From positions 1-43,577 of IMG/VR virus record IMGVR_UViG_3300037502_003856: DNA of 43,577 nt; one strand, written 5' to 3'. The DNA comes from a virus. The notes under the pieces were generated by a model that saw only the letters and a list, made by a program, of their open reading frames with translations, searched no databases and had not been told where the DNA came from. The stretch's first letter is position 1; every line of letters starts with the position of its first letter. Of the stretch, positions 11,007 to 39,550 are shown one piece after another. The position numbers and the translations under genes are program-made.

Positions 11007-13328
11007 ATGCGCAACATAACCGTAGTCAAACGCGACGGCACCCGCGAGCCGTTGGCATTGGAAAAATGGCAGGCACAGATCGCCAAGGTCTGCCAGGGCA
11101 TAGCAGATGTCAGCCAGAGCATGATCGAGATCAAGGCACAGTTGCATTTCTATGATGGCATCACTACCCGCGAAGTAGACAGCATCACTCTGCGTGCCAT
11201 AGTGGATCTCATTGATGTAGAAAGCAATCCCGATGTGGGCCACATCAACTATCAATACGTAGCCGGCAAACAGCGTCTCAGCATGCTGAGGAAGGATGTG
11301 TATGGCAGCTACGAACCACCCCGACTCTATGACATCGTACAACGCAATGTCGCAGTGGGACTGTATACTCCAGAACTGCTAGAGTGGTACACCGAAGCAG
11401 ACTGGGATCGTATGCAAGAAATCATAGATCACAGCAAAGACGAACAGTATGGCTATGCAGCCATCGAACAGCTGATAGAAAAATATCTGGTGCGCAATCG
11501 TGCCACCAAAGAGATATACGAAACTCCCCAGGTCAGATACATGGTGGCCGCAGCCACGGTGTTCCATCGTGAGGAACCCAACACCGCGCGCATGCGCTAC
11601 ATCAAGGAATATTACAATGCTGCCAGCGACGGCTTGTTTACTCTGGCTACTCCTGTTCTGGCTGGGCTTGGTACTCCAACCAAGCAGTTCAGTAGTTGCG
11701 TTCTCATACGCAGTGATGATGATCTTGACAGTATATTTGCTAGTGGTGAAATGATGGCCAAGTATGCCAGCAAACGCGCTGGTATCGGTCTAGAAATAGG
11801 ACGTCTACGTCCCCTGGGATCGCCCATACGTGGCGGAGAGATCATGCACACAGGCATGATCCCGTTCTTGAAGAAATGGTTTGGTGATCTCCGCAGTTGT
11901 AGCCAGGGCGGCATACGCAATGCCAGCGCCACAGTGTTCTATCCCATATGGCATTATCAGTTTGATGATCTCATAGTGTTGAAAAACAATCAGGGCACCG
12001 AAGAGACACGGGTGCGCCACATGGACTACGGTGTGGTGTTATCAGCGTTTTTCTGGCGCAGATTCCGCAACCGAGAAAACATCACGTTCTTTGATCCCAA
12101 CGAAGTGCCGGATCTCTACGAAGCTTTCTATCAAGACACCGCAAAGTTTGAAGAGCTCTATGTGCGTTATGAAAAGCGCACAGACATACGCCGCAAGGTC
12201 ATGGCCGCGGAAGAAGTGTTCAAGTCGGGCATACTCAAAGAACGCACAGACACTGGCAGGATCTATCTGGTGTTCATTGACAACGTCATGAACCAAGGTC
12301 CGTTTGATCCCGAGTATCACACCATATATCAGAGTAACCTCTGCTGTGAGATTTTGTTGCCCACACGGCCCTTCCGCCGCCTGGACGATGATCAGGGTCG
12401 CATCGCGCTGTGTACCCTGGGCAGCATCAACTGGGGCGCGTTCCGCAACCCCGAAGACATGCGCCGCGCCTGCCGCATCCTGCAGCGTAGCCTCTGCAAC
12501 ATCCTGGACTATCAGGATTTCCTCAGCATACAAAGCCGCCTCAGCAACGACGAGATACAGCCCCTGGGCATCGGCGTCACCAATCTCGCCTACTGGCATG
12601 CCAAGCGCGGTCTTCGCTACGGCGAAACCGACAGCCTACAGGAGGTGAAGTCATGGATGGAACACCAGGCCTATTATCTCACCGAGGCCACTATCGAATT
12701 GGCACGCGAGCGAGGGCCGTGCCTAGACAGCGCCCGCACCTGGTATGGACGTGGTGTGTTTCCCTGGGAGCGCAGGGCCCAAGGCGTCGACGAACTGGCG
12801 GATTTCACACCCGAGCTGGATTGGGAAACTCTCAGGAAAGGTATGACGGAACATGGAGTACGAAACGCTACTCTTATGGCTATTGCTCCTGTTGAATCTA
12901 GCAGTGTTGTTATCAATAGCACTAACGGCATAGAGATGCCCATGAGCCTGATCTCTGTGAAAGAGAGCAAGGCCGGATCATTCACACAGGTAGTGCCAGA
13001 GTATCAACGCCTCAAAAACCGCTATGAACTGATGTGGAACCAAACCGATTGCGTGGGTTACATCAAGACCGCGGCCGTGATGGCGGCCTATGTGGATCAG
13101 AGCATCTCCACCAACACCTTCTACAATCCGGCGCATTTTCCGGATCGCAAGGTGCCCACTACATTGATCGCGCGCAACCTCATGCTGGCACATCACTGGG
13201 GTCTCAAGACTTTCTACTACAGCCTCATCAACAAGCAAGGTGCCAAGAGCCGCGCCGAAGATGAAACACCCGTGGCACAGGCAGAGCCCGAACTGCTGGA
13301 AGAGGATTGTGCTGCCTGCAAACTATAA
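11007..13328 (+). CDS. nrdA: class Ia ribonucleoside-diphosphate reductase, alpha subunit
   Basis: 773 residues, full length. N-terminal ATP-cone (VVKRDGTREPLALEKW). Catalytic residues by alignment to E. coli NrdA: C231 (FSSCVLI, equivalent to C225), N444/C446/E448 (SNLCCEI, equivalent to N437/C439/E441) and C469 (IALCTL, equivalent to C462). Further conserved: RVRHMDYG, and FYYS near the C-terminus for radical transfer. The C-terminal redox tail ends DCAACKL, with CxxC rather than the CxxxxC of E. coli. Reduces NDPs to dNDPs for phage DNA synthesis; operon with nrdB and a glutaredoxin that can re-reduce the tail. Two short T-ending-codon islands (about 11637-11750 and 12853-12933) coincide with hydrophobic +1 frames. 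Confidence 0.97.
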   Translation: MRNITVVKRDGTREPLALEKWQAQIAKVCQGIADVSQSMIEIKAQLHFYDGITTREVDSITLRAIVDLIDVESNPDVGHINYQYVAGKQRLSMLRKDVYGSYEPPRLYDIVQRNVAVGLYTPELLEWYTEADWDRMQEIIDHSKDEQYGYAAIEQLIEKYLVRNRATKEIYETPQVRYMVAAATVFHREEPNTARMRYIKEYYNAASDGLFTLATPVLAGLGTPTKQFSSCVLIRSDDDLDSIFASGEMMAKYASKRAGIGLEIGRLRPLGSPIRGGEIMHTGMIPFLKKWFGDLRSCSQGGIRNASATVFYPIWHYQFDDLIVLKNNQGTEETRVRHMDYGVVLSAFFWRRFRNRENITFFDPNEVPDLYEAFYQDTAKFEELYVRYEKRTDIRRKVMAAEEVFKSGILKERTDTGRIYLVFIDNVMNQGPFDPEYHTIYQSNLCCEILLPTRPFRRLDDDQGRIALCTLGSINWGAFRNPEDMRRACRILQRSLCNILDYQDFLSIQSRLSNDEIQPLGIGVTNLAYWHAKRGLRYGETDSLQEVKSWMEHQAYYLTEATIELARERGPCLDSARTWYGRGVFPWERRAQGVDELADFTPELDWETLRKGMTEHGVRNATLMAIAPVESSSVVINSTNGIEMPMSLISVKESKAGSFTQVVPEYQRLKNRYELMWNQTDCVGYIKTAAVMAAYVDQSISTNTFYNPAHFPDRKVPTTLIARNLMLAHHWGLKTFYYSLINKQGAKSRAEDETPVAQAEPELLEEDCAACKL
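11617..11754 (+). other. candidate overprinted hydrophobic ORF (45 residues) inside nrdA
   Basis: In the +1 frame of nrdA, an ATG preceded by AAGGAA with a 7-nt spacer opens a 45-residue frame with two hydrophobic stretches (CLLWLLLFWLGLVL and VVAFSYAVMMILTVYLLVV). It ends exactly where nrdA returns to its usual codon choice. nrdA uses T-ending wobble bases throughout this stretch (gct act cct gtt ... ctt ggt act), which places T at the second codon position of the overlapping frame and makes it hydrophobic. This could be a real membrane peptide or a by-product of an imported or recoded segment. Reported as a candidate only. Confidence 0.3.
12853..12933 (+). other. candidate overprinted 26-residue transmembrane peptide inside nrdA
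   Basis: In the +1 frame of nrdA, ATG 12853 to TAG 12931 encodes MEYETLLLWLLLLLNLAVLL followed by SIALTA: a charged N-terminus and one continuous hydrophobic helix. The frame coincides precisely with a local run of T-ending codons in nrdA, over the conserved NATLMAIAPVESSSVVINSTNG active-site-loop region, which is also a region where inteins are known to insert in other ribonucleotide reductases. The upstream ribosome-binding site is weak (GACGGA 3 nt upstream, AAGG further away). Either an overprinted micro-protein or a scar of gene conversion. Confidence 0.25.
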
Positions 13329-13340
13329 CAAGGAACCACT

Positions 13341-14453
13341 ATGAGCCAAGCACAGTATGATCTCGGTACACGAACCGATTATCTCTCCAGGACCATGTTC
13401 CTGGATCCCGCGGGACCAGTCACAATACAGAGATTTGAAGAGGTCAAATACAATCGCCTGCAGAAGTTTGAACAAGAAGCACGCGGCTTTTTCTGGGTGC
13501 CCGAAGAAGTGAACCTCACCAAAGATGCGCAGGATTTCAAAGAAGCATCAGACACTGTGCGGCACATATTCACCTCCAATCTCCTGCGCCAGACAGCCCT
13601 GGACAGCCTGCAGGGACGTGGTCCCAGCCAGATTTTTACTCCTGTGGTGAGCTTACCAGAACTAGAAGCCCTGGTGTACAACTGGACATTCTTTGAGACC
13701 AACATCCACAGCCGCAGCTATAGCCATATCATCCGCAACATCTACAACGTGCCCAAGGAGGTATTCAACACCATCCATGACACCCGGGAAATAGTTGACA
13801 TGGCTTCGAGTGTAGGCCGGTACTACGATGATCTACACAGGCTGAACTGCTTGAAAGAAATCGCAGACCCAACAAAAGAAACAGTTTTAGAGCCAGCGCA
13901 TATCCGAGCGATTTGGTTGGCACTCAATGCCAGTTATGCACTAGAAGCATTCCGCTTCATGGTATCGTTTGCCACCAGTCTGGCCATGGTAGAGAACAAG
14001 ATTTTCATAGGCAACGGCAACATCATCAGCCTCATACTGCAGGACGAGATCCTGCACCGTGACTGGACCGCATGGGTCATCAATCAGGTGGTGAAAGAAG
14101 ATCCGAGATTTGCCCAGGCCAAGATCCAGTGTGAAGCCGAAGTCTATGACATGTATCAAGACGTCATACGCGAAGAAAAGGCCTGGGCTGATTACTTGTT
14201 CCGCAAAGGACCAGTGATCGGACTCAACGCCAACATCCTGAGAGATTTCGTGGACTACACTGCCAGCCAGGCCCTGCGTGAGATCGGTATCAAGTACACT
14301 GAGCCAGCACCACGCAGCAATCCCATACCTTGGTTCAACAAGCATCTAGACACGCACAAAAAACAAACTGCCCTGCAGGAAAGCGAGAGCACCAACTATG
14401 TCATAGGCGTCATGAGCGATAGCCTTGACTATGAAGCACTGCCACAGATCTAG
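13341..14453 (+). CDS. nrdB: class Ia ribonucleoside-diphosphate reductase, beta subunit
   Basis: 370 residues; RBS AAGGA before ATG. Di-iron and radical residues by alignment to E. coli NrdB: D88 (LDSLQGR), E119, H123 and Y127 (FFETNIHSRSYSH), E202 (LEAFRF), E236 and H239 (DEILH). The radical Tyr127 is conserved. Oddity: the helix reads E-T-N-I-H instead of E-T-I-H, so E119 and H123 are separated by three residues where E. coli E115 and H118 are separated by two. The distances D-to-E (31) and H-to-Y (4) are unchanged, so this is a one-residue insertion within the metal-binding helix. Operon: 12 nt after nrdA, followed by glutaredoxin. Confidence 0.96.
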   Translation: MSQAQYDLGTRTDYLSRTMFLDPAGPVTIQRFEEVKYNRLQKFEQEARGFFWVPEEVNLTKDAQDFKEASDTVRHIFTSNLLRQTALDSLQGRGPSQIFTPVVSLPELEALVYNWTFFETNIHSRSYSHIIRNIYNVPKEVFNTIHDTREIVDMASSVGRYYDDLHRLNCLKEIADPTKETVLEPAHIRAIWLALNASYALEAFRFMVSFATSLAMVENKIFIGNGNIISLILQDEILHRDWTAWVINQVVKEDPRFAQAKIQCEAEVYDMYQDVIREEKAWADYLFRKGPVIGLNANILRDFVDYTASQALREIGIKYTEPAPRSNPIPWFNKHLDTHKKQTALQESESTNYVIGVMSDSLDYEALPQI

Positions 14454-14702: not shown

Positions 14703-14998
14703 AGTTGACCCAAGATGAGATCTATAGTTTGAAACTCAACAGCGGCGAAGAAATCGTGGCCAGAGTCACCAATATTTCAGAACACAGTTTCACAGTGACT
14801 GAACCTGTGGCTGTGGCACCCAGCGCACAAGGCATGGGGTTGATACCTGCGATGTTCACTGCCACACCCGGCACTGAAATCACGGTAAATAAAGGCAGTG
14901 TGGCCTATTTTGGACTCACTGACAGCACTGTGAAAAACAAATACATCGAAGCCACCACTGGACTGAAAATACCAGAAAAGAGATTGGTACTGGGCTGA
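14699..14998 (+). CDS. conserved small beta-barrel (Sm-like) phage protein
   Basis: 99 residues, start ATG overlapping the glutaredoxin stop (ATGA), RBS CAGGAG. The N-terminal part YSLKLNSGEEIVARVTNISE followed by SFTVTEPVAV has the strand pattern of an Sm/LSm-like barrel, and proteins of this type with LNSGEEIVA occur in many T4-like marine phages. Function unknown; possibly RNA-binding or a virion accessory, both inferences. Its stop overlaps the PAAR gene start (TGATG). Confidence 0.65.
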   Translation: MKLTQDEIYSLKLNSGEEIVARVTNISEHSFTVTEPVAVAPSAQGMGLIPAMFTATPGTEITVNKGSVAYFGLTDSTVKNKYIEATTGLKIPEKRLVLG

Positions 14999-15285
14999 TG
15001 CCAGCATGCCAGCGCAAGGGTGATCCCAACACCGCAGGCGGCACTGCCACTTCAGGCACGCCCACGGTGCGTGTAAACAATCGTCCTGTGGTGGTGCCGG
15101 GCATCAGCGTGACTCCGCACCCTTGTTGTGGGCGCCCGGGATGTAGTCCCCACTGCAATGCCCGCACCTCTGGCGGCAGTCCCAACGTGAGATCTGAGAA
15201 CAAACCTGTGATCCGAACTTCGGTGGATCGTGATACCTGCGGACATCCGAGATCACAAGGTAGTCCCAACGTGAGGGTCAACTGA
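14998..15285 (+). CDS. PAAR-repeat tail-spike tip protein
   Basis: 95 residues. The sequence MPACQRKGDPNTAGGTATSG followed by VRVNNRPVVVPG and later HPCCGRPGCSPHC, GGSPNVRSENKPV and DTCGH fits the PAAR/gp5.4 family: repeats of short beta strands making a small metal-binding cone that caps the gp5-type central spike. Nine cysteines and several His residues are plausible ligands for metal at the tip. It is coupled by one-base stop-start overlaps to genes on both sides, including the 666-residue structural protein, which therefore may be a tail or baseplate component. Confidence 0.85.
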   Translation: MPACQRKGDPNTAGGTATSGTPTVRVNNRPVVVPGISVTPHPCCGRPGCSPHCNARTSGGSPNVRSENKPVIRTSVDRDTCGHPRSQGSPNVRVN

Positions 15286-17285
15286 TGACCACCAGCGTGA
15301 TATCACCCTTGGCCTTGACAGCCGGTGCGGGACTGTATGCCAACACCGGCCTCACCATCAACACGGTGTTTTCTACCAACATCACTGCCTACAACACCAC
15401 GCCCTTCATGGCCAACCTACTGGCGGCCATGGATGATGCCCACAACCAACCCGGAGTGGACATCACTGATGCTGTTATGGCCAACCTCATGAGCATAGGG
15501 GCCAATGTTTCGGGCAACTACTGTCCGGCTCTGGGCGACAGCGTGCCCAGCAATGTCTCTATACCCATAGGCACATCGGGTTACTGGGGAGACAGCAGCA
15601 TAGATTCTCCGTTTGGTCTCACTGGTTCCTTGGTCAAAGCAGCCAATGAATACCTTGGTCTGGGCAATTACAGCGTGTTCTGTCAGGCCTTTGCCACGGC
15701 CGATGCCTATGTCACAGTGACCAACCAGATCATATTCAGCGCCGACAATGCCAACACCTATCTGGGTCCCACCTTCCGCAACATGGATGATCTCATCACC
15801 GGCGATATCGCGCGGGTGAATCTAGCCACGGATGCCTGGGGGCAAGATCTACAGGCCCTGGGCAGACTCATTGATTTCAACAATCTCGGTCAGTTTGGAA
15901 CCCCAGCTGGTTTGTTGCAACAATTGAGCCGAGTGGGCAACATCATCAACGGTACCCTGCCTGCTGTACGCAATGCGCTGTTTGAGGAAGGTCTCACTGA
16001 TCGCGATATCTCGGATCTGGTCAACAACAACATCGTGGGCCTGTTCAATCCCACGGGCCTCAGCCAGCGAGATTTTGACCGACTGCAAAAGCGAGCCTAT
16101 CCCGCACTGTGCACCATCACTGGCACCAATCTCACTGATGTGCTGACTATCTTGGGCATCACCACGCCCAACATCAACAGCATGTGTGAGCTGTTGGATC
16201 CGCGCCGTATATTCCCCAACAGTTACACCAGCCTCACCATGCCGACTCCTGCGGGCGATGTGCTGATCTACAGCGACAGCGGCAATGTCAATGACATCAT
16301 AGCCGACACCTTGGATGCGGCTTTGGTAGTCCCGGGTGGGTGTGAAAATCTCGCCAAGATCATCCCACCCGATCTCGCAGCGGCCAACCGTGCCTTGCAG
16401 CTGGCTTTTGGACAGATCAAAAATATCTCGGCCGTGACCCTGCCCGAACTGGCACAGGCCGTGATAAACCTCAATACCATGCGAGATCTAGATCTCATAG
16501 CCAATGTCGCTACTCCCATACCCACTTCGGCCCAATCATTCTATGCCAACACTCTGGCCACTGGCAGTGGACCCTTGGGATCCATCTTGCTCACAGATGT
16601 GCTGGGCACACCCACGGGCATAGGCGTCAACGAATACCTGGAACCAGTCAACGATATCATCGCCGCCAGTGTCACTGCTGGCACACTCAACAACCTCGGC
16701 ACAATTTACAGCCGCATGGTCAGCCTGTTCGCGGGCACCTATGGTACTCCACCCACCATCACCATACCCGCGGGTGCCGGCGCCGGCAGTTATACCACCT
16801 ACAGCAATGCCTTGCAGGCCCTGATCACCGCGGCCGATGCTGAAATCGGCACGGTGATCACAGCGCTGGGCACCGACGCCACCACGCTCAATGCCAACTG
16901 GACGGCCATGGCCCAACATCTCGAGCAAGAACTGGTGCTGCAGAGCCGCGCCGGCATCAATTTCGACACAGATCCTGGCCTTGGACAGACCGAAATCACC
17001 AGTTTCGTGACCAATCTCACTGCCTATGGCGTCAACACACAGCAGGGCATGAGCGCGCAGTATCTCCAGAGCGTGGCCAACGTCGCCACACAGGCCGGAC
17101 AGGCCATCATAGCCACCATGCGCGAGGGACGCAACAACGTGCTCATGGATCTAGCTACCATAGGGCATGACAACGCAGTGCCAGACACGCCCAGCGTGCC
17201 CCTGCCCCAGGCCGATCTGGGCGATGCTACCTATACTCCGGCCCAGGCCAGAGCGTTGGTACAAGCGCGTCTCAGCCCCGGTTGA
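15285..17285 (+). CDS. large virion structural protein (tail/baseplate region, putative)
   Basis: 666 residues, ATG overlapping the PAAR stop. The protein is rich in Asn, Thr, Ala, Leu and Gly, with no signal peptide or enzymatic motif. It contains sections such as NMDDLITGDIARVNLATDAW and SMCELLDPRRIFPNSYTSL that I associate with a large conserved structural protein of T4-like marine phages. Residues around 540-640 are helical and Ala-rich. Position directly after the PAAR tip and before a promoter and ligase supports a tail or baseplate-associated role. Its stop TGA forms part of the -35 hexamer of the ligase promoter. Confidence 0.7.
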   Translation: MTTSVISPLALTAGAGLYANTGLTINTVFSTNITAYNTTPFMANLLAAMDDAHNQPGVDITDAVMANLMSIGANVSGNYCPALGDSVPSNVSIPIGTSGYWGDSSIDSPFGLTGSLVKAANEYLGLGNYSVFCQAFATADAYVTVTNQIIFSADNANTYLGPTFRNMDDLITGDIARVNLATDAWGQDLQALGRLIDFNNLGQFGTPAGLLQQLSRVGNIINGTLPAVRNALFEEGLTDRDISDLVNNNIVGLFNPTGLSQRDFDRLQKRAYPALCTITGTNLTDVLTILGITTPNINSMCELLDPRRIFPNSYTSLTMPTPAGDVLIYSDSGNVNDIIADTLDAALVVPGGCENLAKIIPPDLAAANRALQLAFGQIKNISAVTLPELAQAVINLNTMRDLDLIANVATPIPTSAQSFYANTLATGSGPLGSILLTDVLGTPTGIGVNEYLEPVNDIIAASVTAGTLNNLGTIYSRMVSLFAGTYGTPPTITIPAGAGAGSYTTYSNALQALITAADAEIGTVITALGTDATTLNANWTAMAQHLEQELVLQSRAGINFDTDPGLGQTEITSFVTNLTAYGVNTQQGMSAQYLQSVANVATQAGQAIIATMREGRNNVLMDLATIGHDNAVPDTPSVPLPQADLGDATYTPAQARALVQARLSPG

Positions 17286-17310
17286 CCAATAAAGATCATT
17301 TTGCTATAAT
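17282..17310 (+). promoter_or_regulatory. sigma70-like promoter for the DNA ligase operon
   Basis: TTGACC (17282-17287, containing the upstream stop TGA), 17-bp spacer, perfect TATAAT (17305-17310). Leader of about 28 nt with AAGGGG before the ATG. Confidence 0.85.
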
Positions 17311-17344
17311 ATGGGTATAGTGAAAACAAAGATCAAGGGGCAAA

Positions 17345-18745
17345 ATGATGGTATCTACAACAGCTATAGATTTCGTTAGCCAAGCAGACAAGTTCCAGGG
17401 CATCACAGTGGCAGCAGATTGGATACGGGATCTCGAAAGCTCAGACAGCCGGTTGCACAAGGAAGCCGTGATCGAAAAAGCGCTGACAGCGGCCCGATTG
17501 GGCAGCGCCAACGCCCAGTGTTTCTTGTTCAATTGCTATCTGGCCTACAACCCATTTTTCGTTTATCATGTGCGCCAAGTGCCCGAAAGCACAGGCTTGG
17601 AAAATCGCGCCAATCCTTGGCCCAGATTCTGGGCCTTGTGTGAGAGCCTGCGCACCCGTAGTGTCACTGGTGGCAAAGCACACGCGGCCATACAACAGGT
17701 CATGCAAGAATTTGACAGCACCGAGTGGAATGGCATGTGCCGCAGGGTCCTGATCAAAGATCTGCGCTGTGGCATCTCGGAAAAAACGCTGAACAAGGTC
17801 CTGAGCCGCAGTGAATATCGCATCCCAGTGTTTACTTGCCAGCTGGCGCAGGACAGCTCGGATCGCGCAGATCGGCTGCAAGGCGTCAAGCGACTGGAAG
17901 TAAAACTGGATGGTGTGCGCGTGCTGGCCGTTATCACTGGCGACAGCGTCACACTGTACAGCCGCAGTGGCAAACCATTTGACAATTTCAGTGACGTCGA
18001 ATACGACATCGAACAGATATTGCCCAAGTTACGCGACTGCCTGGACTTTCCCTTGGGTCAGAATTTTGTGCTGGACGGTGAGATCGTGGGCGAGAGTTTC
18101 CAGAAACTCATGCGCCAGGCTCATCGCAAAACCGATGCTGACACCACAGGCATGGTGTATCATGTGTTTGATGTGATCCCACTGCAGGCCTTTGAATCTG
18201 GACGCTATGGTTCGAGCCAGAGCGAGCGTCTGGCTCAGTTAGACCGATGCCGGGATCTCATGCGCACCACCAATACCCTGCGCATCATGCCCGGTGAGAC
18301 TCGTGACCTCAGCACAGCCCAGGGACAGCAGTATCTCACTGAATTTTTTGAAGCCGCTGTGAGCCAAGGCTACGAGGGCATCATGATCAAAGATCCCACA
18401 GCGCCCTATGAGTGCAAGCGTACCAGCAGTTGGTTGAAATGGAAACCCACTATCACTGTGGATCTCACCATAGTGGGTTTTGAGCAAGGTACCGGTCGCA
18501 ATGCGGACCGGTTGGGTGCTATAATCTGCGAAGGAGTGGACGATGGACGTAATATTCGGGTCAATGTTGGCAGTGGCTTTGGTGATAGCGATCGTGATGA
18601 GTATTGGACCAATCGGGATCAGCTACTTGGTAGGATTGTGGAAGTGCAAGCCGACACAGTCTCACAAAACCAAGACGGATCCTACAGCCTGAGGTTCCCG
18701 CGTTTTGTGAGATTCCGTGGCTTTGAGCCAGGAGAGAAATTATGA
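17345..18745 (+). CDS. ATP-dependent DNA ligase (T4 gp30-like)
   Basis: 466 residues; ATG 17345 or the adjacent ATG 17348, both behind AAGGGG. Covalent nucleotidyltransferase motifs: motif I VKLDGVR with the adenylated Lys187, motif III DGEIVGESF, motif IV YEGIMIKDP, motif V SWLKWKP. The N-terminal 180 residues match the helical DNA-binding domain position of T4 ligase (KDLRCGISEKTLNKV resembles the conserved D-L-R-x-G motif). Seals nicks during phage replication and recombination. It is first in an operon behind a strong host-type promoter, so expressed early. The stop TGA overlaps the next ATG. Confidence 0.96.
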   Translation: MMVSTTAIDFVSQADKFQGITVAADWIRDLESSDSRLHKEAVIEKALTAARLGSANAQCFLFNCYLAYNPFFVYHVRQVPESTGLENRANPWPRFWALCESLRTRSVTGGKAHAAIQQVMQEFDSTEWNGMCRRVLIKDLRCGISEKTLNKVLSRSEYRIPVFTCQLAQDSSDRADRLQGVKRLEVKLDGVRVLAVITGDSVTLYSRSGKPFDNFSDVEYDIEQILPKLRDCLDFPLGQNFVLDGEIVGESFQKLMRQAHRKTDADTTGMVYHVFDVIPLQAFESGRYGSSQSERLAQLDRCRDLMRTTNTLRIMPGETRDLSTAQGQQYLTEFFEAAVSQGYEGIMIKDPTAPYECKRTSSWLKWKPTITVDLTIVGFEQGTGRNADRLGAIICEGVDDGRNIRVNVGSGFGDSDRDEYWTNRDQLLGRIVEVQADTVSQNQDGSYSLRFPRFVRFRGFEPGEKL

Positions 18746-19750: not shown

Positions 19751-20586
19751 GCAACACCGAACAACATCAGGAACTCATAGACGCGCTGAAATTCACGCCG
19801 CGAGAAATAGACATCACCTTGCTGGGCTATGGCGGCGAGATCGTCATGGGTCGCATCACACCCGAGCAGTACACGTTCTGGAAAGGCCGTGAAGATTTCA
19901 CGGACTATATCTGGGATTGGGATTATCAGCTGCCCGAGGGCACTGATCCCGACATGGGGTTTGTGACCACTGGCAGCTGGCATGAATGCGACGACATAGC
20001 GCATGAGTGCAGCATGGAAATGAGCAGCTCCTGTGTGATCCGCGTCACAGAAGTAGAAAGCGGCGAGGACATCTGGGAAAACAGCGCGGACATCCAAAGC
20101 CTGCAGGATGCTGGCGTAGAAGTAGAGTGGTTCATGAACGAAGAGCGCGGGGATTTTCCCGGCCAGCATTTGTTCATAGGGCAGAGCATCGAAAAAGGTT
20201 GCTTTGGCAGCTACCGGATCCGTATCACACGGCCTTTTGATCCCACAAAATTGCGGATCAACATCAATGAAGTAGATGGCTGGTGCCTGTGCGGCAGCAT
20301 AGAATACGACGGCGAAGAACCCGAAAACCAGGGAGATTATGACACCACAGGCAAGGGATCGGAGTTCGTGTTGCACTACGAGCCAGAATCTGGGGTAGAT
20401 TACTCAGACTGGCATGACGCAGAATCTAGCCATCCTGCCTACGAGGGTTTGTACGACGTAGAGCAGGAACTAGAATACACCACGGAGCGCAGGGCTTGGT
20501 GGTTGAATGGTGCATGGAGAGATCAGGCTGGTACAGTGCTGGAATCCGTGCGACGCTGGCGTGGTCTAGACAAGCCCTCGGCGTGA
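19747..20586 (+). CDS. conserved phage protein of unknown function
   Basis: 279 residues from ATG 19747 (ATGA overlap with the previous gene); longer readings of the frame upstream are shadows. N-terminal FTPREIDITLLGYGGEIVMG is a motif I recall from conserved hypothetical proteins of marine T4-like phages. The protein is acidic and rich in Glu, Asp, Trp and Cys (for example WHECDDIAHECSMEMSSSC), soluble, mixed alpha/beta. It ends the ligase operon; its stop TGA is at the edge of an inverted repeat that contains the porin promoter. Confidence 0.65.
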   Translation: MSNTEQHQELIDALKFTPREIDITLLGYGGEIVMGRITPEQYTFWKGREDFTDYIWDWDYQLPEGTDPDMGFVTTGSWHECDDIAHECSMEMSSSCVIRVTEVESGEDIWENSADIQSLQDAGVEVEWFMNEERGDFPGQHLFIGQSIEKGCFGSYRIRITRPFDPTKLRININEVDGWCLCGSIEYDGEEPENQGDYDTTGKGSEFVLHYEPESGVDYSDWHDAESSHPAYEGLYDVEQELEYTTERRAWWLNGAWRDQAGTVLESVRRWRGLDKPSA

Positions 20587-20615
20587 TTTATCTCAGTGTT
20601 GTGACGGAGATAAAT
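20586..20615 (+). repeat. inverted repeat overlapping the porin promoter
   Basis: Perfect 9-bp arms ATTTATCTC (20586-20594) and GAGATAAAT (20607-20615) separated by 12 nt. The right arm contains most of the late-type box GATAAATA. Could be an operator, or a hairpin ending the upstream operon. Confidence 0.6.
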
Positions 20616-20616
20616 A
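20609..20616 (+). promoter_or_regulatory. late-type promoter of the porin gene
   Basis: GATAAATA, 37 nt before the porin ATG; AAGGAG ribosome-binding site at 20643-20648. Its presence ties porin expression to the phage late programme. Confidence 0.6.
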
Positions 20617-20653
20617 GTTTTTTCGGCAGTAAATCAAATCTCAAGGAGAAACA

Positions 20654-21565
20654 ATGAAAAAGCAACTCATCGCGGCGGCCTTGGCCACTGCATTTAGCGT
20701 ACCCGCCTTGGCCCAACAGGCCACGGTTTATGGCATCATTGATCAAGCATATCGGGCCACCAGTCCCGATGTTGGGGCAGGCACACAGGGCGTGGTCAGC
20801 GGCAGTTTCGCTACCAGCCGACTTGGCGTGCGTGGCACGGAAGATCTCGGTGGTGGCCTCACTGCTAGTTTCACTCTAGAAGGTGGAGTCACAGCTGGCA
20901 CGGGTGCGGTGGGCTCGGGTTCGAATCTGTTCAGCCGTGAAAGCAGCTTTACATTGGCTGGTGGCTTTGGTGCCGTGACCGTGGGTCGTACTGATACATC
21001 GGCCAGTGAAGGCATCGACACCCTGGCTGGTATCGCGAACTTTGGTAACTTCTCGTTTGTCAGCGGCGTAGAGTATGCTGGTGATCGCGAGAACACCGTG
21101 CGTTACACCACGCCAACCATCGCTGGGTTCACTGCCCAGATCGGTGAGAGCGCAGAAGGCGCCCAAGGTTCACGGCTCCGCAGTGGCAGCGTGACTTTCG
21201 CACAGGGCAATCTGAACCTGGGCGTGGGCTACGACGAGACGCGCGAAGGTGACACCTACACCGCAGCAGGTGGTCGTTATGATTTTGGTTTCGCTGCTGT
21301 GGGTGCCATGGCTGGACAGCGTGACGCCGCTGGTGTCAAGACCGATGTTCAGGCCTACACCGCTCGTGTGCCGCTGCCTGCAGGCCTGGCAGCTCTGGGC
21401 AGCTATCGCATCACTGAAGTTGGCACCACCAAGACCACAGTGGCCGCGGCTGGCATCAGCAAGGCTCTCAGCAAGCGCACCCAGATCGTGGCTGTGTATC
21501 AGGACACTGACAAGGGCGCAGCAGCTGGTAGTTTTGCCCAGGTTGGTTTGGTACACTCGTTCTAA
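20654..21565 (+). CDS. outer-membrane porin (Gram-negative betaproteobacterial type)
   Basis: 303 residues. Sec signal peptide MKKQLIAAALATAFSVPALA with predicted cleavage after ALA (residue 20). Mature start QQATVYGIIDQAY and the motifs TSRLGVRGTEDLGGGLTASF and FGAVTVGRTDTS are typical of Burkholderiales-type general porins. Alternating beta-strand pattern throughout, and a C-terminal Phe (GLVHSF) as required for BamA recognition. Somewhat shorter than usual for the family (commonly 330-400), probably in loops. Own late-type promoter, strong RBS and intrinsic terminator. Possible roles: masking or replacing the receptor for superinfecting phages, as known for prophage-encoded porins such as Lc/NmpC, or altering nutrient influx. 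Host DNA contamination is unlikely given the phage signals on both sides. Confidence 0.93.
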   Translation: MKKQLIAAALATAFSVPALAQQATVYGIIDQAYRATSPDVGAGTQGVVSGSFATSRLGVRGTEDLGGGLTASFTLEGGVTAGTGAVGSGSNLFSRESSFTLAGGFGAVTVGRTDTSASEGIDTLAGIANFGNFSFVSGVEYAGDRENTVRYTTPTIAGFTAQIGESAEGAQGSRLRSGSVTFAQGNLNLGVGYDETREGDTYTAAGGRYDFGFAAVGAMAGQRDAAGVKTDVQAYTARVPLPAGLAALGSYRITEVGTTKTTVAAAGISKALSKRTQIVAVYQDTDKGAAAGSFAQVGLVHSF

Positions 21566-21585
21566 ATTCGCCCAGCGCGGATCCC

Positions 21586-21610
21586 AAGGCACCTCCGGGT
21601 GCCTTTTTTG
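21586..21610 (+). terminator. intrinsic terminator of the porin unit
   Basis: Stem AAGGCACC / GGTGCCTT with a 4-nt loop followed by six T. Strong rho-independent terminator 20 nt after the porin stop. Confidence 0.9.
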
Positions 21611-21659: not shown

Positions 21660-21688
21660 TTGACTGCTATGATATATACTCGTACAAT
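21660..21688 (+). promoter_or_regulatory. sigma70-like promoter for the ahpC-ahpD operon
   Basis: TTGACT (21660-21665), 17-bp spacer, TACAAT (21683-21688). Leader of about 31 nt with GAGGA before ATG 21726. The 50 bp upstream are A/T-rich and follow the porin terminator. Confidence 0.78.
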
Positions 21689-21725: not shown

Positions 21726-21833
21726 ATGAGCTATCGTGAACGTTTTGAATATCTCAGGACCTATCACTGTCCCAGTTGCCGGAGTTCCGGACCGGGCACA
21801 GTCAACTCTTCAACACCAAAGGAAACAGCATGA
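21726..21833 (+). CDS. 35-residue peptide with CPSC motif
   Basis: Complete small ORF (MSYRERFEYLRTYHCPSCRS and 15 further residues), first gene after a sigma70-like promoter with a GAGGA ribosome-binding site. Its stop overlaps the ahpC ATG (ATGA), so translation is coupled. The single C-x-x-C with a preceding His could bind metal or act as a thiol pair; it might also be merely a leader peptide for ahpC. No family recognised. Confidence 0.55.
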   Translation: MSYRERFEYLRTYHCPSCRSSGPGTVNSSTPKETA

Positions 21834-22366
21834 AAACAGTAGGAGATCGAGTAGAAAGTTTTGCCATCACCGGCATCAACCCCGGTCGAGATGATTTTTT
21901 CACCATTGACGAAAAGAGCTTTGCAGGCAAGTGGAAGGTCATCGTTTATTATCCCAAGGACTTCACCTTTGTTTGCCCCACAGAGATCGTGGCCTATGAC
22001 CGATTGTTCCAAGACTTCGCGGACCGCGATGCTGTGTTGCTCACAGGCTCCACAGACAATGAGTTCTGCAAACTGGGTTGGCAGGCCGCACACGAAGATC
22101 TGAAAAAGATCCGGCACATCCAGTTCGCCGACACAGCTCGTGACGAGCGCAGCCTCATCGATCAGCTGGGCGTGTTCTATGCTCCCGCAGGCGCTGCCTT
22201 GCGTGCCACGTTCATCGTTGATCCCGACAATGTGATCCAGCATGTCACTGTCAACAACCTCAACGTGGGTCGCAGCCCCGAAGAGACTCTGCGTGTGTTG
22301 GATGCGCTGCAGACCGGCGAGCTGTGCCCTTGCAATCGCACCATTGGTGGGGAGACGCTGTCGTGA
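21830..22366 (+). CDS. ahpC: AhpC-type peroxiredoxin
   Basis: 178 residues from ATG 21830; the longer upstream reading overlaps the small CPSC gene in another frame and is not needed. Peroxidatic Cys49 in FTFVCPTEI with the conserved Pro and Thr of the active site; resolving cysteines at the C-terminus (ELCPCNR, C166 and C168). The C-terminal CPC pattern is that of AhpC proteins reduced by AhpD, which follows directly. Function: reduction of H2O2, organic hydroperoxides or peroxynitrite. Early-type promoter suggests defence against oxidative stress during infection. Confidence 0.96.
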   Translation: MKTVGDRVESFAITGINPGRDDFFTIDEKSFAGKWKVIVYYPKDFTFVCPTEIVAYDRLFQDFADRDAVLLTGSTDNEFCKLGWQAAHEDLKKIRHIQFADTARDERSLIDQLGVFYAPAGAALRATFIVDPDNVIQHVTVNNLNVGRSPEETLRVLDALQTGELCPCNRTIGGETLS

Positions 22367-22878
22367 CTGCGTGGGTAGATCAACTCAAAGAAGCCATCCC
22401 AGACTATGCCAAGGACACACGTCTGAACATCGACGCCGTGATCCGGCGCAGCACACTGGGCGAAGCACAGGCCGAAGCCTGTGCCCTGGCCGCGGTGTTT
22501 GCCACAGGCAACACCAAACTGTGGACCTGGATACAGAGCCAGGTGCAGGACCAGAAGGAGGCCGAAGCGGCCATCACAGCAGCTTCACTCATGGCCATGA
22601 ACAATGTATGGTATCCCTATATCGAGATGGCGGATGACGCCAACTTGTCCGGCTTGCCAGCACAACTACGCATGAATGCCATAGCCACGCATGGTGGTAC
22701 CACCAAGGCTCTGTTTGAAGCCTATAGCCTGGCTGCCAGCATCGTGGGCAAATGCCATTTTTGTGTGAAAGCGCACTATGAAACGCTGAAGAAGGAAGGC
22801 TACACAGTGGAGCAACTGCGAGACATAGGTCGCATCGCTGCTGTGATGGCTGCAGTGAGCCGAGTAATGACCAACTAA
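22363..22878 (+). CDS. ahpD: AhpD-type alkylhydroperoxidase reductase
   Basis: 171 residues from GTG 22363 (GTGA overlap with the ahpC stop; GGGGAG upstream). Active-site residues correspond closely to M. tuberculosis AhpD: E119 (LFEAYSLA), C131-H-F-C134 and H138 (KCHFCVKAH). Helical AhpD fold; transfers reducing equivalents to AhpC through the CxxC. The strict coupling with ahpC indicates a functional two-component peroxidase pair. Followed by a perfect 9-bp hairpin. Confidence 0.95.
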   Translation: MTAWVDQLKEAIPDYAKDTRLNIDAVIRRSTLGEAQAEACALAAVFATGNTKLWTWIQSQVQDQKEAEAAITAASLMAMNNVWYPYIEMADDANLSGLPAQLRMNAIATHGGTTKALFEAYSLAASIVGKCHFCVKAHYETLKKEGYTVEQLRDIGRIAAVMAAVSRVMTN

Positions 22879-23213: not shown

Positions 23214-24617
23214 ATGATTCTCACTAACATAATGTTCGTGGTGGCCTTGGCGCTGAGTGCCATAGCTGCCTTTTACAGCATCGTAGGTCTCACTGCGATA
23301 TTCGCCGCTGCAGTGATACCAATCGTGATCATGGGCACCATACTGGAGATAGCCAAAGTCACTGTGACACTGTGGTTGCACGAATACTGGCGACAGTGCC
23401 GCATGCTAATGAAACTGTATCTGGTGCCTGCGGTATTTGTGCTCATGATCATCACCAGCATGGGCATCTTTGGATTCCTCAGCAAAGCCCACTTGGATCA
23501 GACCGTGCCCACGGGAGACGTGGCAGCGCAGGTGCAGCTCATAGATGAAAAGATCAACAACGAGCGTGACACCATCAACAATGCCCGCACCCTGCTGGCA
23601 CAACTAGACAAAGCCGTGCTGGACATCAGCAACGCACCAGATCGTGAAGTCAATGGTCGAGTCATCAGTTCAGCTGAGCGTGCCCTACAGGTACGCAGGC
23701 AGCAGGCACAGGATCGCGCCCGACTCACTGCCACCATTGAGCAGGCCCAGGCGCGCATAGTAAAACTCCAGGAGGAAAAGGCACCATTTGCCAAAGACCT
23801 GCGCAAGATCGAAGCTGAAGTAGGTCCCATCAAATACATCGCTGCCTTGATCTACGGCGACAATCCCGATGCCAATCTCTTGGAAAAAGCCGTGCGCTGG
23901 GTCATCATAATCCTGGTGGCTGTGTTTGATCCCTTGGCCATAATGATGCTGCTGGCGGCCACCGAAAGCCGTGGGTGGATCATGGCCCGGCGAGATGAAG
24001 AACCACTGCCGGCCACACCGCCAGAGATCAAAGATCCGCCTGGAACTGGGCCTGAACCTGAACCTCTGGTCATTGAACCCCAGCCGCAAGAGATCACAGA
24101 GGACGCACCCAGGCCAGAACCCCAGCCCAGCTTGCCCGAAGTGCGCGCAGAGCCCCCCGTTGCGGCACCTCCACTGTCGCGCATCGATGACGCAGAAGTA
24201 GATGATGATCCCATACACGACGAGGATCCACAGATCAAGCAAGCCATGAAACAGTGGAAACAAGAGAACCCGCGACGCACGCTCAAAGAGATGCGCGCCA
24301 AATTTGCCCAGGGTCTGATCGATCATCTACCTTGGTTGGATTTCCTGCCACCGCGCAGTGGCTTTGGTTCCAGTTTCCCCAACAATCCACGGCGTGGCGA
24401 TACATACATGCGCACGGACAAAACACCCAATCAACTCTACAAATTCAATGGATACACCTGGATCGAAGTGGATCGCAATGGCAGCGACATCTACACCTAT
24501 GACGAGGCCTATATCGATCACCTCATCAATGAGATCGCCAAAGGAAACTACAACCCCGAGTGGCTCAGCGAAAATGAATCCGAGCAGATACAACAGAAAC
24601 TACGAGGTCGTTCATGA
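23214..24617 (+). CDS. membrane protein with periplasmic or cytoplasmic coiled coil
   Basis: 467 residues. Three hydrophobic helices near the N-terminus (IMFVVALALSAIAAFYSIV, TAIFAAAVIPIVIMGTIL and YLVPAVFVLMIITSMGIFGF), a 130-residue coiled-coil region (for example AAQVQLIDEKINNERDTINN), a fourth helix (WVIIILVAVFDPLAIMMLLA), then a Pro/Glu-rich linker and a C-terminal domain with NNPRRGDTYMRTDKTPNQLY. The architecture resembles large conserved membrane proteins of T4-like marine phages with unknown role. Its stop overlaps the clpX ATG (ATGA), coupling it to clpX. Confidence 0.72.
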   Translation: MILTNIMFVVALALSAIAAFYSIVGLTAIFAAAVIPIVIMGTILEIAKVTVTLWLHEYWRQCRMLMKLYLVPAVFVLMIITSMGIFGFLSKAHLDQTVPTGDVAAQVQLIDEKINNERDTINNARTLLAQLDKAVLDISNAPDREVNGRVISSAERALQVRRQQAQDRARLTATIEQAQARIVKLQEEKAPFAKDLRKIEAEVGPIKYIAALIYGDNPDANLLEKAVRWVIIILVAVFDPLAIMMLLAATESRGWIMARRDEEPLPATPPEIKDPPGTGPEPEPLVIEPQPQEITEDAPRPEPQPSLPEVRAEPPVAAPPLSRIDDAEVDDDPIHDEDPQIKQAMKQWKQENPRRTLKEMRAKFAQGLIDHLPWLDFLPPRSGFGSSFPNNPRRGDTYMRTDKTPNQLYKFNGYTWIEVDRNGSDIYTYDEAYIDHLINEIAKGNYNPEWLSENESEQIQQKLRGRS

Positions 24618-25807
24618 AAGACAATGATCAGTTAGGACACTGTAGTTTTTGCAGCAAGCACAAGGGTGCTGTGGCCAAACTCATAGTGGGCGCAGACGTG
24701 GCCATCTGCAACGAATGTGTGGATCTCTGCCAGACTTTGCTGCATGATGATCCGCCTGAATCGCCGCCGGCCCGCAGTCTAGACCCCATGGAGATCAAGA
24801 AGTTCTTGGACCAGTACGTGATAGGACAAGACGAAGCCAAGGTCATACTCAGTGTGGCCATAGCCAACCATTACAAACGCATCGATCACCCCGAAGCCGA
24901 AGTAGAAAAAGTCAACATCCTGATGCTGGGACCCACGGGCTCAGGCAAGACACTGTTGGCCAGGACCGTGGCACGCTACCTCGACGTACCATTTGTCATA
25001 GCTGATGCCACCAGCCTCACCGAAGCTGGCTACGTGGGCGATGACGTAGAAGTCATGATCAGCCGGTTGTTTGCCGCAGCCAACAACGATGTTGAGCGAT
25101 GCCAGCGCGGTATCGTGTTCATTGACGAAGTAGACAAAATCAGCCGACGCAGTGAAAGTGCCAGCATCACGCGTGATGTTTCAGGCGAAGGTGTGCAACA
25201 GGCCCTGTTGAAACTGGTGGAAGGCACACGCTGTCGCATACAGCCCACGGGCAATCGCAAACACCCACAGGGCGAGACCATAGAAATCGATACCACCAAT
25301 ATCTTGTTCATTGCCGGTGGGGCTTTTGTGGGATTGGACAACGTCATCCGCAACAGGGTGCGTGGCACCAGCATAGGCTTTGGCGCCCGAGTAGAACGTG
25401 ATATAAATACCAACCTGGGTCTCACTACTCCTGATGACATCATCAGGTTTGGCATGATACCAGAATTTGTTGGCAGGTTTCCCACTTGGGTGGCATTGCA
25501 AGAACTCACAAAAGCAGACATGATATCTATATTGAAAAGCATCAAAAACAGCTACATCCATCAGTACAAATGGTTGTTTGAACAGGACAGCATCGCCCTG
25601 GAGTTCACCGATGACGCATTGGATTGCATCGCTGATCGAACTCTGGTGAATCGCACTGGTGCCCGGGGGCTACACAGCGAGCTAGAACGCACACTGCTGC
25701 CACACATGTACCGCGTGGCACAGTATCGTCGCGAAGGCATCACCCGCATAGACATTGATAGGAGCATGGTAGAGACCCCTCACGCCCTGCTGCAAGCCAA
25801 TGAGTAA
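24614..25807 (+). CDS. clpX: ClpX-type AAA+ unfoldase
   Basis: 397 residues. N-terminal zinc-binding domain with C10/C13/C32/C35 (CSFC...CNEC). Walker A GPTGSGKT (106-113), pore-1 loop GYVGDDVE (139-146), Walker B GIVFIDEVD (166-174), RKH loop NRKHPQGE (214-221), and the ClpP-docking loop SIGFGAR with I254-G255-F256. Sensor-2 region RTGARGLHSELE. All functional elements look intact, so it should unfold substrates and dock a ClpP ring, either the host ClpP or the phage ClpP-like protein at 41064. Some loop residues differ from bacterial ClpX (GYVGDD for GYVGED), consistent with long residence in a phage. Coupled upstream to the coiled-coil membrane protein and downstream to bS21. Confidence 0.96.
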   Translation: MKDNDQLGHCSFCSKHKGAVAKLIVGADVAICNECVDLCQTLLHDDPPESPPARSLDPMEIKKFLDQYVIGQDEAKVILSVAIANHYKRIDHPEAEVEKVNILMLGPTGSGKTLLARTVARYLDVPFVIADATSLTEAGYVGDDVEVMISRLFAAANNDVERCQRGIVFIDEVDKISRRSESASITRDVSGEGVQQALLKLVEGTRCRIQPTGNRKHPQGETIEIDTTNILFIAGGAFVGLDNVIRNRVRGTSIGFGARVERDINTNLGLTTPDDIIRFGMIPEFVGRFPTWVALQELTKADMISILKSIKNSYIHQYKWLFEQDSIALEFTDDALDCIADRTLVNRTGARGLHSELERTLLPHMYRVAQYRREGITRIDIDRSMVETPHALLQANE

Positions 25808-26024
25808 TCTCTACGGTCGCAGCGTATTGTTGCCCGATGGCAACGTGGAAAAGGGCCTGCGCAAGCTCAAGAAAAAACTACAGGCTGCCAACCTCATGAA
25901 CGAATTGCGCGATCGTGAAACATATATCAAACCCACCACGCGCAGGAAGCTGAAAAAATCCGCGGCCCGCAATCGCTGGCGCAGATATGTGGAAAGCCAG
26001 AGACTCCCACCGCGCATGTACTGA
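25800..26024 (+). CDS. rpsU: ribosomal protein bS21 homologue
   Basis: 74 residues. The core DGNVEKGLRKLKKKLQAANL, then NELRDRETYIKP and RRKLKKSAARNRWRR, follows the bS21 pattern (short strand, conserved E-K-A-L-R-x-F-K type helix, Y-x-K-P, basic C-terminus). Length and charge are right for the family, which sits on the 30S platform next to the anti-Shine-Dalgarno sequence and promotes initiation. Phage-encoded bS21 is known and is thought to replace the host copy. The ATG overlaps the clpX end by 8 nt, coupling it to clpX; its stop overlaps the next ATG (TGATG). Confidence 0.88.
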   Translation: MSNLYGRSVLLPDGNVEKGLRKLKKKLQAANLMNELRDRETYIKPTTRRKLKKSAARNRWRRYVESQRLPPRMY

Positions 26025-26236
26025 TGTATGTGGAGTTTGACGTCACGAACTGGCTGCATCTCATGCAGGTCCGCAGTGCTGTAGATAAGTGGCAACATCA
26101 ACACAATGTCGTGGTCCGACAAAAAACAGTGAAAGACGTCCACAGGGTGGGTCTTGATGACGAGACACAGTGGGTGCTGTTCATGTTGACCTGGCAAGGG
26201 CCTGAATTCCGCGTGATACACAGCCGCAATCATTGA
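26024..26236 (+). CDS. small protein of unknown function
   Basis: 70 residues, ATG overlapping the bS21 stop. It contains VTNWLHLMQVRSAVDKWQHQ and a C-terminal beta hairpin region (TQWVLFMLTWQGPEFRVI). Soluble, rich in His, Trp and Val. Last gene of the clpX-bS21 operon; its stop TGA is inside the -35 hexamer of the dnaK promoter. Function unknown. Confidence 0.55.
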   Translation: MYVEFDVTNWLHLMQVRSAVDKWQHQHNVVVRQKTVKDVHRVGLDDETQWVLFMLTWQGPEFRVIHSRNH

Positions 26237-26263
26237 CAGATCGCGGCAAATCTGGTATAAATA
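26233..26263 (+). promoter_or_regulatory. dnaK promoter, sigma70-like and late-type combined
   Basis: TTGACA (26233-26238, containing the upstream stop), 17-bp spacer, TATAAATA (26256-26263). The -10 element is at once a good sigma70 box and a perfect T4-late core, so dnaK could be transcribed in both phases. Confidence 0.75.
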
Positions 26264-26267
26264 CTGT

Positions 26268-26317
26268 TGTGGTGCTGGATGGTCCGGGCCACACTGTCAA
26301 CTTGCTTAACAAAGGAG
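26268..26317 (+). promoter_or_regulatory. structured leader of dnaK, shared with hsp20
   Basis: Order: hairpin with outer arms TGTGG (26268-26272) and CCACA (26289-26293), box TCAACTTGCTTAA (26297-26309), then ribosome-binding site AAAGGAG (26311-26317). The same order and nearly the same sequence precede hsp20 at 28225-28272. Candidate RNA-level control element, possibly temperature- or chaperone-responsive. Confidence 0.6.
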
Positions 26318-26324
26318 AATGACT

Positions 26325-28205
26325 ATGAGCAAAGTAATTGGTATTGACCTCGGCACCACCAACAGTTGTGTGGCCATCGTAGAAGCAGGAAATCCCCGTG
26401 TGATAGAAAACAGCGAAGGTGCTAGGACCACACCCAGCATCGTGGCCTACACCGACGGCGAAGTCTTGATCGGAGCGCCGGCCAAACGCCAGGCCGTGAC
26501 CAATCCCCGAAACACCATCTACGCTGCCAAGCGGCTGATCGGTCGCAAGTTCACCGAAGAAGCAGTGCAGAAAGACATCAAGCTCATGCCCTATGAGATC
26601 ATCGAGAGCCAGAACGGTGATGCATGGGTCCGGGCGCAGGGCCGAGAATTGGCACCTCCCCAGATCTCCGCAGAAGTATTGCGCAAGATGAAAAAGACCG
26701 CGGAAGATTATCTAGGACATGAAGTTACACAGGCTGTAATCACTGTGCCGGCCTATTTCAACGACAGCCAGCGCCAGGCCACCAAAGACGCTGGAAAGAT
26801 AGCGGGATTGGAAGTGCTGCGCATCATTAACGAACCCACAGCAGCGGCCCTGGCCTACGGCGTAGACAAGACCGATCGGCGTGATCGCAAAGTGGCAGTG
26901 TACGACTTGGGTGGCGGCACGTTTGACATCTCCATCATTGAAATCGCTCATGTAGATGGTGACAAACAGATCGAAGTGCTGAGCACCAACGGTGACACAT
27001 TCCTGGGCGGTGAGGATTTTGACCAGCGCATCATGGATCACATCGTTGCCGAATTCCGTCAGCAGCAAGGTGTGGATCTATCAAAAGATCCCATCGCTCT
27101 GCAGCGCATCAAGACCGCTGCAGAACGCGCCAAGATCGAACTCAGTTCGGGTCAGCAAACCGAAATCAACGAACCCTACATCGCCATGAACAACGGTGCA
27201 CCGGTGCATCTCACCATGAAGATCACCCGAGCCAAGCTAGAAAGCCTGGTGGAAGAGCTCGTTGAGCGCAGCATTGAGCCTTGCCGTGTGGCCATGAAAG
27301 ATGCCGGAGTCACTGCTGCAGACATCGATGAAGTGATCTTGGTGGGCGGACAGACCCGTATGCCTATGGTGCAAGCAGCAGTGGAGAAGTTGTTTGGCCG
27401 TGCACCTCGACGCGACGTCAATCCCGACGAAGCAGTGGCCGTGGGCGCGGCGGTGCAAGGCGCTGTGCTGGCCGGAGATCGCACCGATGTGCTGTTGTTG
27501 GATGTCACGCCCCTGAGCCTGGGCATCGAGACCATGGGCGGTGTGATGACCAAACTCATCAAGAAAAACACCACTATCCCTACCAAACACAGCCAGATCT
27601 TCAGCACGGCCGAGGACAATCAGCCCGCTGTGACGATCAAGGTTTTCCAGGGCGAGCGAGAATTGGTGCAGCACAACAAGATGCTCGGTGAGTTCAATCT
27701 CGAAGGTATTCCGCCTGCACGTCGTGGACAGCCGCAGATCGAAGTCACGCTGGACATTGATGCCAACGGTATCATGAGTGTATCGGCCCGTGACAAGAAC
27801 ACTGGCAAAGAGAACAAGATCACCATCAAGTCGGACTCGGGACTCACCAAGGATGAGATCGAAGCCATGGTACGCGATGCCGAAGCCAATGCCGATGCTG
27901 ACCGGAAACAACGCGAGGTCATTGAAGCACGCAATCAATTGGATGCAGTGATCCACGAAACCCAGCGTGATCTCGACGATCACGGCAAGGACCTCACCGC
28001 AGAAGATCGGGAAAAGATCCAATCAGCGTTGACTGCAGGCCGCGAGGCGGCCCAGGGCGATGACGCCAAGATCATGGGCGAACACATCGCCAAAATCTAT
28101 GGTGTAGTGGCACCACTGCAGGAACGCCGGAATTCTTCGGCCAAAACCGAAGATACAAAACAGGACGACACAGTGGTTGACGCGGATTTCCGCGAGAGCG
28201 CATAA
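26325..28205 (+). CDS. dnaK: DnaK-type Hsp70 chaperone
   Basis: 626 residues from ATG 26325; the in-frame ATG at 26319 is only 1 nt from AAAGGAG and is unlikely. Nucleotide-binding domain motifs: [72 protein letters not shown]. Interdomain linker and substrate domain start [16 protein letters not shown]-terminal helical lid, ending [10 protein letters not shown] close to the usual EV(V/I)DADFEE tail. Near full length (E. coli 638). No DnaJ or GrpE is present in the window, so it must use host co-chaperones. It could support capsid folding, replication complexes or IscU (LPPVK motif). Followed by hsp20 with a duplicated leader. Confidence 0.97.
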
Positions 28206-28224
28206 TAGTCCTGTAGAGTCGTAC

Positions 28225-28272
28225 GTGGCTGCCTCCGGGGGCCACGGTGGTCAACTTGCTTAATGAAAGGAG
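28225..28272 (+). promoter_or_regulatory. structured leader of hsp20, duplicate of the dnaK leader
   Basis: Hairpin arms GTGGC (28225-28229) and GCCAC (28241-28245), identical box TCAACTTGCTTAA (28251-28263), AAAGGAG (28266-28272), then AATGAC and ATG. The box is identical over 13 nt to that of dnaK, and spacing to the RBS differs by one base. Confidence 0.6.
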
Positions 28273-28278
28273 AATGAC

Positions 28279-39264: not shown

Positions 39265-39550
39265 CGGCTGTGCCTATACCGTGGACACCCCAGTACATCG
39301 CGTGCCCATGGCGGCCACGGATTTGAATTATTTCCAACCCGATTGCCGGATCAAACAGCAACAGATCGAGATGTTGCAGAGCATGCGCCAGACGCCCGAC
39401 GAACAGCTCATGGCCTATGGTAAAAACATCACGCATTTCTGGCACAAGTATACCCAGCCCGATGAACATCGGCGCAGGGCCGAGATTGGCACTGGTGAGA
39501 TCAACCGCCAGATCAATTACAACCTTCAGCTCTTGAGGCAATGTCCATGA
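39197..39550 (+). CDS. exported protein with lipoprotein-like signal
   Basis: 117 residues from ATG 39197, chosen because it places a signal peptide (NKARSVIAFGACVTTAAVSSGC) at the N-terminus; the longer reading has no sense upstream. The lipobox S-S-G-C is weak. Mature part: LNYFQPDCRIKQQQIEMLQS, MRQTPDEQLMAYG and GEINRQINYNLQLLRQCP, a pattern of conserved exported proteins of marine T4-like phages, with two cysteines at the ends of the mature domain. Function unknown. Confidence 0.68.
   Translation: MNINKARSVIAFGACVTTAAVSSGCAYTVDTPVHRVPMAATDLNYFQPDCRIKQQQIEMLQSMRQTPDEQLMAYGKNITHFWHKYTQPDEHRRRAEIGTGEINRQINYNLQLLRQCP

Follow-up and report, generated by a model that had tools for sequence, protein, structure and literature searches.

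Outer-membrane barrel proteins are a recurrent class of phage-borne genes in an uncultured lineage of the T4 superfamily, and the virus sequence analyzed here, from a large freshwater phage, encodes one of them: a protein that, judged from its sequence, is an intact and functional-looking porin. The sequence is a linear record of 43,577 bp, referred to at its full length as the window. The original prediction had taken a porin under late control for an unusual thing in a T4-like phage. That view was too local, as porins recur across the lineage in about 20 distinct phage contexts. Two explanations remain in play. One is the mechanism proposed in that prediction, a block to adsorption or a replaced receptor; the other, that a host-derived porin has been kept by the phage as an uptake gene, we rate at about an even chance.

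The porin and its predicted structure

The gene (20654–21565, plus strand) starts with ATG and encodes 303 amino acids. Pfam Porin_4 (PF13609) matches the product over profile positions 1–306 of 310 (E = 3.5e-33; 116.2 bits against a cut-off of 27). A Sec-type signal, MKKQLIAAALATAFSVPALAQ/Q, occupies about residues 1–21 as judged by eye, and the C-terminus reads ...VGLVHSF, with the final Phe expected of the class. AlphaFold2, given 65 relatives as input, models a 16-strand barrel with a mean pLDDT of 89.4, in which loop L3 carries helices at 116–124 and 127–133. Profile, fold, signal and C-terminal Phe together bear out the claim that the phage carries a complete porin gene.

The nearest solved fold found by Foldseek is Omp32 of Comamonas (Delftia) acidovorans (2fgq; E = 1.7e-20, TM 0.80). 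Three arginines of Omp32, R38, R75 and R133, which we take to be those of its eyelet or constriction, align with R56, R95 and R145 of the window porin, R145 not being conserved in most other phage porins. The model suggests a constricted pore. With Omp32 and BpsOmp38, both of the Porin_4 family, the protein further shares the constriction by L3, a GTEDLGGG turn and the region of the SKRT motif. It differs from them in its shorter outer loops, in an identity of 26–27% in the fold alignment, and in its location in a phage genome behind a phage-type promoter.

Expression signals

By its sequence signals, the porin is a self-contained unit of promoter, gene and terminator, and the originally proposed span of 20586–21610 bounds this unit correctly. 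A TATAAATA-like promoter element is present ahead of the gene as GATAAATA. Its core, the T4-late-type -10-like element TAAATA (20611–20616, plus strand; context GGAGATAAATAG), lies 43 nt upstream of the ATG. An AAGGAG ribosome-binding site follows at 20643–20648, and an intrinsic terminator hairpin with a T run after it ends the unit at 21586–21605 (fold z = -2.0), both on the plus strand. The AhpC gene 3′ of the porin has its own sigma-70-like site at 21660–21688.

T4-type late promoters are supported by two findings. TAAATA occurs 17 times on the plus strand of the window against 3.2 expected, nearly all copies sitting 11–112 nt ahead of a gene start, and the T4 gp55-type late sigma factor (phrog_234) was found in all nine relatives of 175–355 kb searched, the window itself being a 43.6-kb fragment. 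On the other side, TAAATA precedes nrdA, dnaK and other genes of the window as well, so the motif may not mark strictly late genes. Barrel genes of related phages have TAAATA or TAAGTA in some cases and a near-consensus sigma-70 promoter in many others. Late control, as first proposed, is thus plausible for the window porin from its promoter sequence, but it is not a rule for related barrel genes.

Phage lineage and genomic surroundings

The window has no nucleotide match to cultured phages. Its ligase reaches at best 35% identity to those of cultured phages, in phages of other hosts, and its porin has one weak match among them; the porin of a related record (L022) and the 180-aa barrel described below have none. 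The T4 major capsid protein, gp23, is encoded in 11 of 17 large records that share the ligase or AhpC of the window. On the strength of gp23 and the gp55-type sigma factor in the large relatives (175–355 kb), the lineage is placed in the T4 superfamily, as an uncultured branch with genomes of some 300 kb.

Around the porin, the window encodes a ribonucleotide reductase (11007–14453), a PAAR protein and a DNA ligase, and it also contains a virion-protein match and tail-spike matches. In a region at 24614–28719, a ClpX-like ATPase, a full-length DnaK (Hsp70) and an Hsp20 follow in close succession, all phage-encoded. No tRNA that might hint at the host was found in the window. Outside the porin unit, an AhpC-type peroxiredoxin (21830–22366) and its partner, an AhpD-like alkylhydroperoxidase (22360–22878), were identified by Pfam, both on the plus strand. 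This peroxide-defense pair is a widespread phage module, present in at least 595 IMG/VR stretches. AhpD is kept in 78 of the 80 best phage AhpC loci, whereas a porin-like match lies nearby in only two; the adjacency to the porin is not conserved, and a link between the porin and AhpC/AhpD was dropped.

Nothing beyond the bacterial origin of the porin speaks for host contamination or a chimeric assembly. Phage genes flank the gene, a phage-type promoter precedes it, its codon usage falls inside the range of the window genes, and its closest relatives lie in other phage contigs. Porins are also found in phage contexts of independent metagenome contigs, several of them in a slot between homologous phage genes (see below). 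Contamination is therefore very unlikely, and with chimeric assembly included its probability is close to negligible.

Relatives, origin and selection

The closest relatives of the window porin are in other phage contigs, at 44–66% identity, the nearest being that of virus contig L002 (about 65–66%). Upstream of the latter, a Bax1-I family membrane protein and a rubrerythrin are encoded (L002:1–1926). A search of bacterial genomes, suggested at the outset as a way to find the donor or host, gave more distant matches: at best 39% in a scan of GTDB contigs and, among some 420 genomes sampled from the genus Polynucleobacter and from the family to which a Limnohabitans genome belongs, 41%. Another phage porin (L005), compared with 399 genomes of the wider order, reached 39% at best. 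The nearest bacterial lineages include Burkholderiales of the Polynucleobacter type, and in the tree the window clade groups with porins of the genus Polynucleobacter and of one other Burkholderiales genome (96/93). The expectation that the porin type would indicate the host lineage is thus borne out by matches and tree alike: Burkholderiales, near Polynucleobacter.

A phage-only clade around the window porin has weak support (82/43). The tree over all phage porins forces at least three changes between phage and bacterium, and a single origin was rejected on this ground. Every pair of related-phage porins with measurable dS gave a dN/dS of 0.07–0.30; the pair of window and L002 is saturated at synonymous sites. 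The related phage porins are under purifying selection by this measure, which indicates that their function has been kept.

The self-contained unit, and the varied positions of the closest porins in other phages, would suit incidental cargo, i.e., a host gene captured by transduction whose loss is still pending. We consider this quite improbable in view of the strong purifying selection, the repeated gains, the phage-like codon usage and the kinship from phage to phage, which reaches far back: the window porin is 65% identical to that of L002, while no bacterial match exceeded 41%.

A barrel locus beside the PAAR gene

Two scans with porin queries, which found the same contigs, gave 26 viral loci, and the use of three further phage porins as queries (L009, L014 and L016) added one locus only. 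Comparison of loci pointed to a position at which barrel genes recur. Its upstream anchor is a PAAR-motif protein of 95 aa (14998–15285 in the window; Pfam PAAR 1.8e-5, just below cut-off; phrog_281 3e-9), followed by a 666-aa protein of no assigned family (15285–17285; no Pfam or PHROG match), directly after whose homologue the barrel gene lies in relatives. The downstream anchor is an ATP-dependent DNA ligase (17345–18745; Pfam and PHROG). All three are on the plus strand. The 666-aa protein is conserved across the lineage beside the PAAR gene, and one homologue (in L034) bears a weak likeness to a baseplate hub (E = 0.005). In the window itself, the slot (17286–17344, plus strand) is empty, with 60 nt between the anchors, and the porin is placed 1.9 kb after the ligase.

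How often the slot is occupied was estimated from a sample independent of porins, 80 loci fetched by the ligase alone, in 75 of which both the 666-aa homologue and the ligase were visible. Barrel-type proteins, defined by a crude filter (a Sec signal and a C-terminal Phe, Tyr or Trp), fill the slot in 18 of the 75, each time directly behind the 666-aa homologue. Six further filter matches were left out: five homologues of window 39541–40104 and one protein (L183) that is not first in the slot. Among 46 large records, Porin_4 scored above cut-off in eight, and in three of these eight the match lies away from the slot.

The occupants are varied: full porins, short porins of 278–302 aa, proteins of about 180 aa and YfaZ-like proteins of 149 aa. 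The secreted proteins of 179–186 aa occur in L154, L166, L168, L191, L203, L206, L214 (8274–8813) and L250 (11259–11816), and the L214 representative is modeled as a 10-strand barrel (pLDDT 83.5). Two of the slot proteins of this size match Porin_4 in its C-terminal half only, slightly below cut-off; L166, L206 and L250 show this half only, the picture one would expect if half of a porin had turned into an independent barrel. The 149-aa YfaZ-like barrels are those of L167 (7458–7904; Pfam PF07437) and L187 (4824–5270). Near the ligase, three records (L203:8541–9911, L214:11554–12891 and L146:7250–8623) also encode lipoprotein-like proteins of 440–460 aa with repeated calcium-type motifs, D-x-D/N-x-D-G.

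That the 10-strand barrels lack the N-terminal half, including L3, suggests a role other than permeation for at least part of the family. The swapping of barrels in the slot, and the half-porins, keep alive the explanation that the phage remodels the cell surface: its barrel would replace or crowd out the receptor porin, so that competitors and progeny fail to adsorb to the infected or lysed cell. Phages classically use host porins as receptors (PMC8594841), the window porin has a late-type promoter, and what a full porin, a 10-strand barrel and a YfaZ-like protein share beside the PAAR gene is occupancy of the outer membrane, not one substrate. Against this stand the sigma-70 promoters of many lineage barrel genes, by which late timing is no feature of the family, and the ordinary outer loops of the window porin. 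Whether lost loops might betray receptor escape was considered, and the idea was rejected: the loops without L3 amount to 77 residues, compared with 89–154 in 43 bacterial porins, but to 73–76 in small porins of a wider bacterial sample. The transporter neighbors of other phage porins (next section) also suit uptake better. We regard remodeling of the surface as possible but on balance doubtful. A broader view, which we hold tentatively and at less than even odds, is that the lineage of some 300-kb phages keeps a barrel locus beside PAAR with swapped occupants and routinely rebuilds the host outer membrane, permeation and surface exclusion being two uses of the same locus.

Neighbors of other phage porins and the case for uptake

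In two records, pstS lies directly 5′ of a phage porin, 49–67 nt upstream on the same strand (NCBIfam equivalog, 6e-126 and 3e-125, above cut-off). These two arrangements (L323:6180–7196 and L324:6406–7422) may be phosphate-uptake units spanning periplasm and outer membrane; our literature search found no published phage pstS–porin unit. In a third record, a TctC-type receptor gene in the same orientation begins 20 nt past the porin. In L040, tctA lies 61 nt downstream of the porin (E = 1.4e-56), followed by a weak TctC match, and in L037 a weak TctC match lies 8 nt downstream. The gene run after the porin in L028 and L033 includes QueD-like and queuosine-precursor transporter genes, which may relate to deazaguanine modification of DNA (L028:11511–12644, and L033). 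In all, the porin is clustered with uptake genes in L322, L323, L324, L037 and L040. These transporter-linked porins lie outside the PAAR/ligase slot.

Queries with PstS, TctC and TctA found about 14 matching places in 160 porin-independent loci (2.26 Mb). At about 20 porin sites, with one gene considered on each side, well under one chance neighbor is expected and four to five were observed; the estimate is rough, as distant TctC copies may be missed.

It is because of the PstS, TctC, TctA and queuosine-precursor transporter genes beside other phage porins that we prefer uptake to a block of adsorption. Adsorption block or receptor replacement, offered in the original prediction, is accordingly disfavored as the leading explanation, the ordinary outer loops adding to the case. 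No transporter gene lies beside the window's own porin, which AhpC and AhpD follow, and uptake is extended to it by analogy with its relatives. Uptake would proceed as follows. The supply of host porin presumably stops during infection by a large phage of the T4 superfamily. Made from the TAAATA promoter and exported through the Sec pathway, the phage porin would take its place in the outer membrane. There it would sustain or increase the inflow of small nutrients, probably anions (phosphate or organic acids, for example), which inner-membrane transporters of host or phage would then take up. Timing, localization, substrate and benefit are all inferred for the window porin. A strictly late promoter would leave little time for a nutrient benefit, unless the infection is long.

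A long infection by a phage of about 300 kb is also the premise of a less specific explanation, by which the porin replaces the major outer-membrane protein as it is turned over and so keeps the envelope stable and permeable, with no particular substrate. The DnaK, Hsp20 and ClpX-like genes of the window suggest care for host proteostasis, and AhpCD, together with the rubrerythrin and Bax1-I protein of the L002 phage, suggest upkeep under stress. This explanation does not predict the pairing with PstS, TctC or TctA in relatives, and we think it unlikely.

Comparison with known systems

The Lc and NmpC proteins are trimeric porins of the OmpC/OmpF type encoded by lambdoid prophages of enterobacteria, and porins of this kind were proposed to alter the receptor for adsorbing phages. 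The window porin is likewise phage-encoded, but it belongs to a betaproteobacterial type and to a lineage of the T4 superfamily. A temperate lambdoid origin does not fit the T4-type gp23 of the lineage and the absence of close cultured relatives. Another outer-membrane-like barrel of phages, the cyanophage domain Phage_OMP (PF24653), had no match in 27 lineage records in a search run without a positive control, and only a sub-threshold match to a 149-aa slot protein.

Two further systems concern uptake. A viral OmpL porin lies beside glnK-amtB, the latter an ammonium transporter gene, in presumed Bacteroidetes phages (PMC8115048). It too is a virus-borne porin, there next to a transporter, but the host phylum is different, the transported substrate is ammonium and the phages are not of a T4-like lineage, whereas the window porin has no transporter neighbor. 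Marine phages carry the uptake genes pstS and tctA (PMC6359870), which also serve nutrient acquisition. Their products act at periplasmic and inner-membrane steps, in contrast to the outer-membrane step considered here, and it is only among the relatives that this step is joined to PstS or TctC/TctA.

Implications

Known phage uptake genes act mostly in the periplasm or the inner membrane. If the present reading is true, a wide group of uncultured T4-like phages, in some of which the selected porin is accompanied by PstS or tricarboxylate transporters, would govern nutrient passage across the outer membrane as well, or alternatively the surface that competitors meet. In both cases, a concrete set of genes connects phages with uptake in freshwater Burkholderiales, an abundant group.
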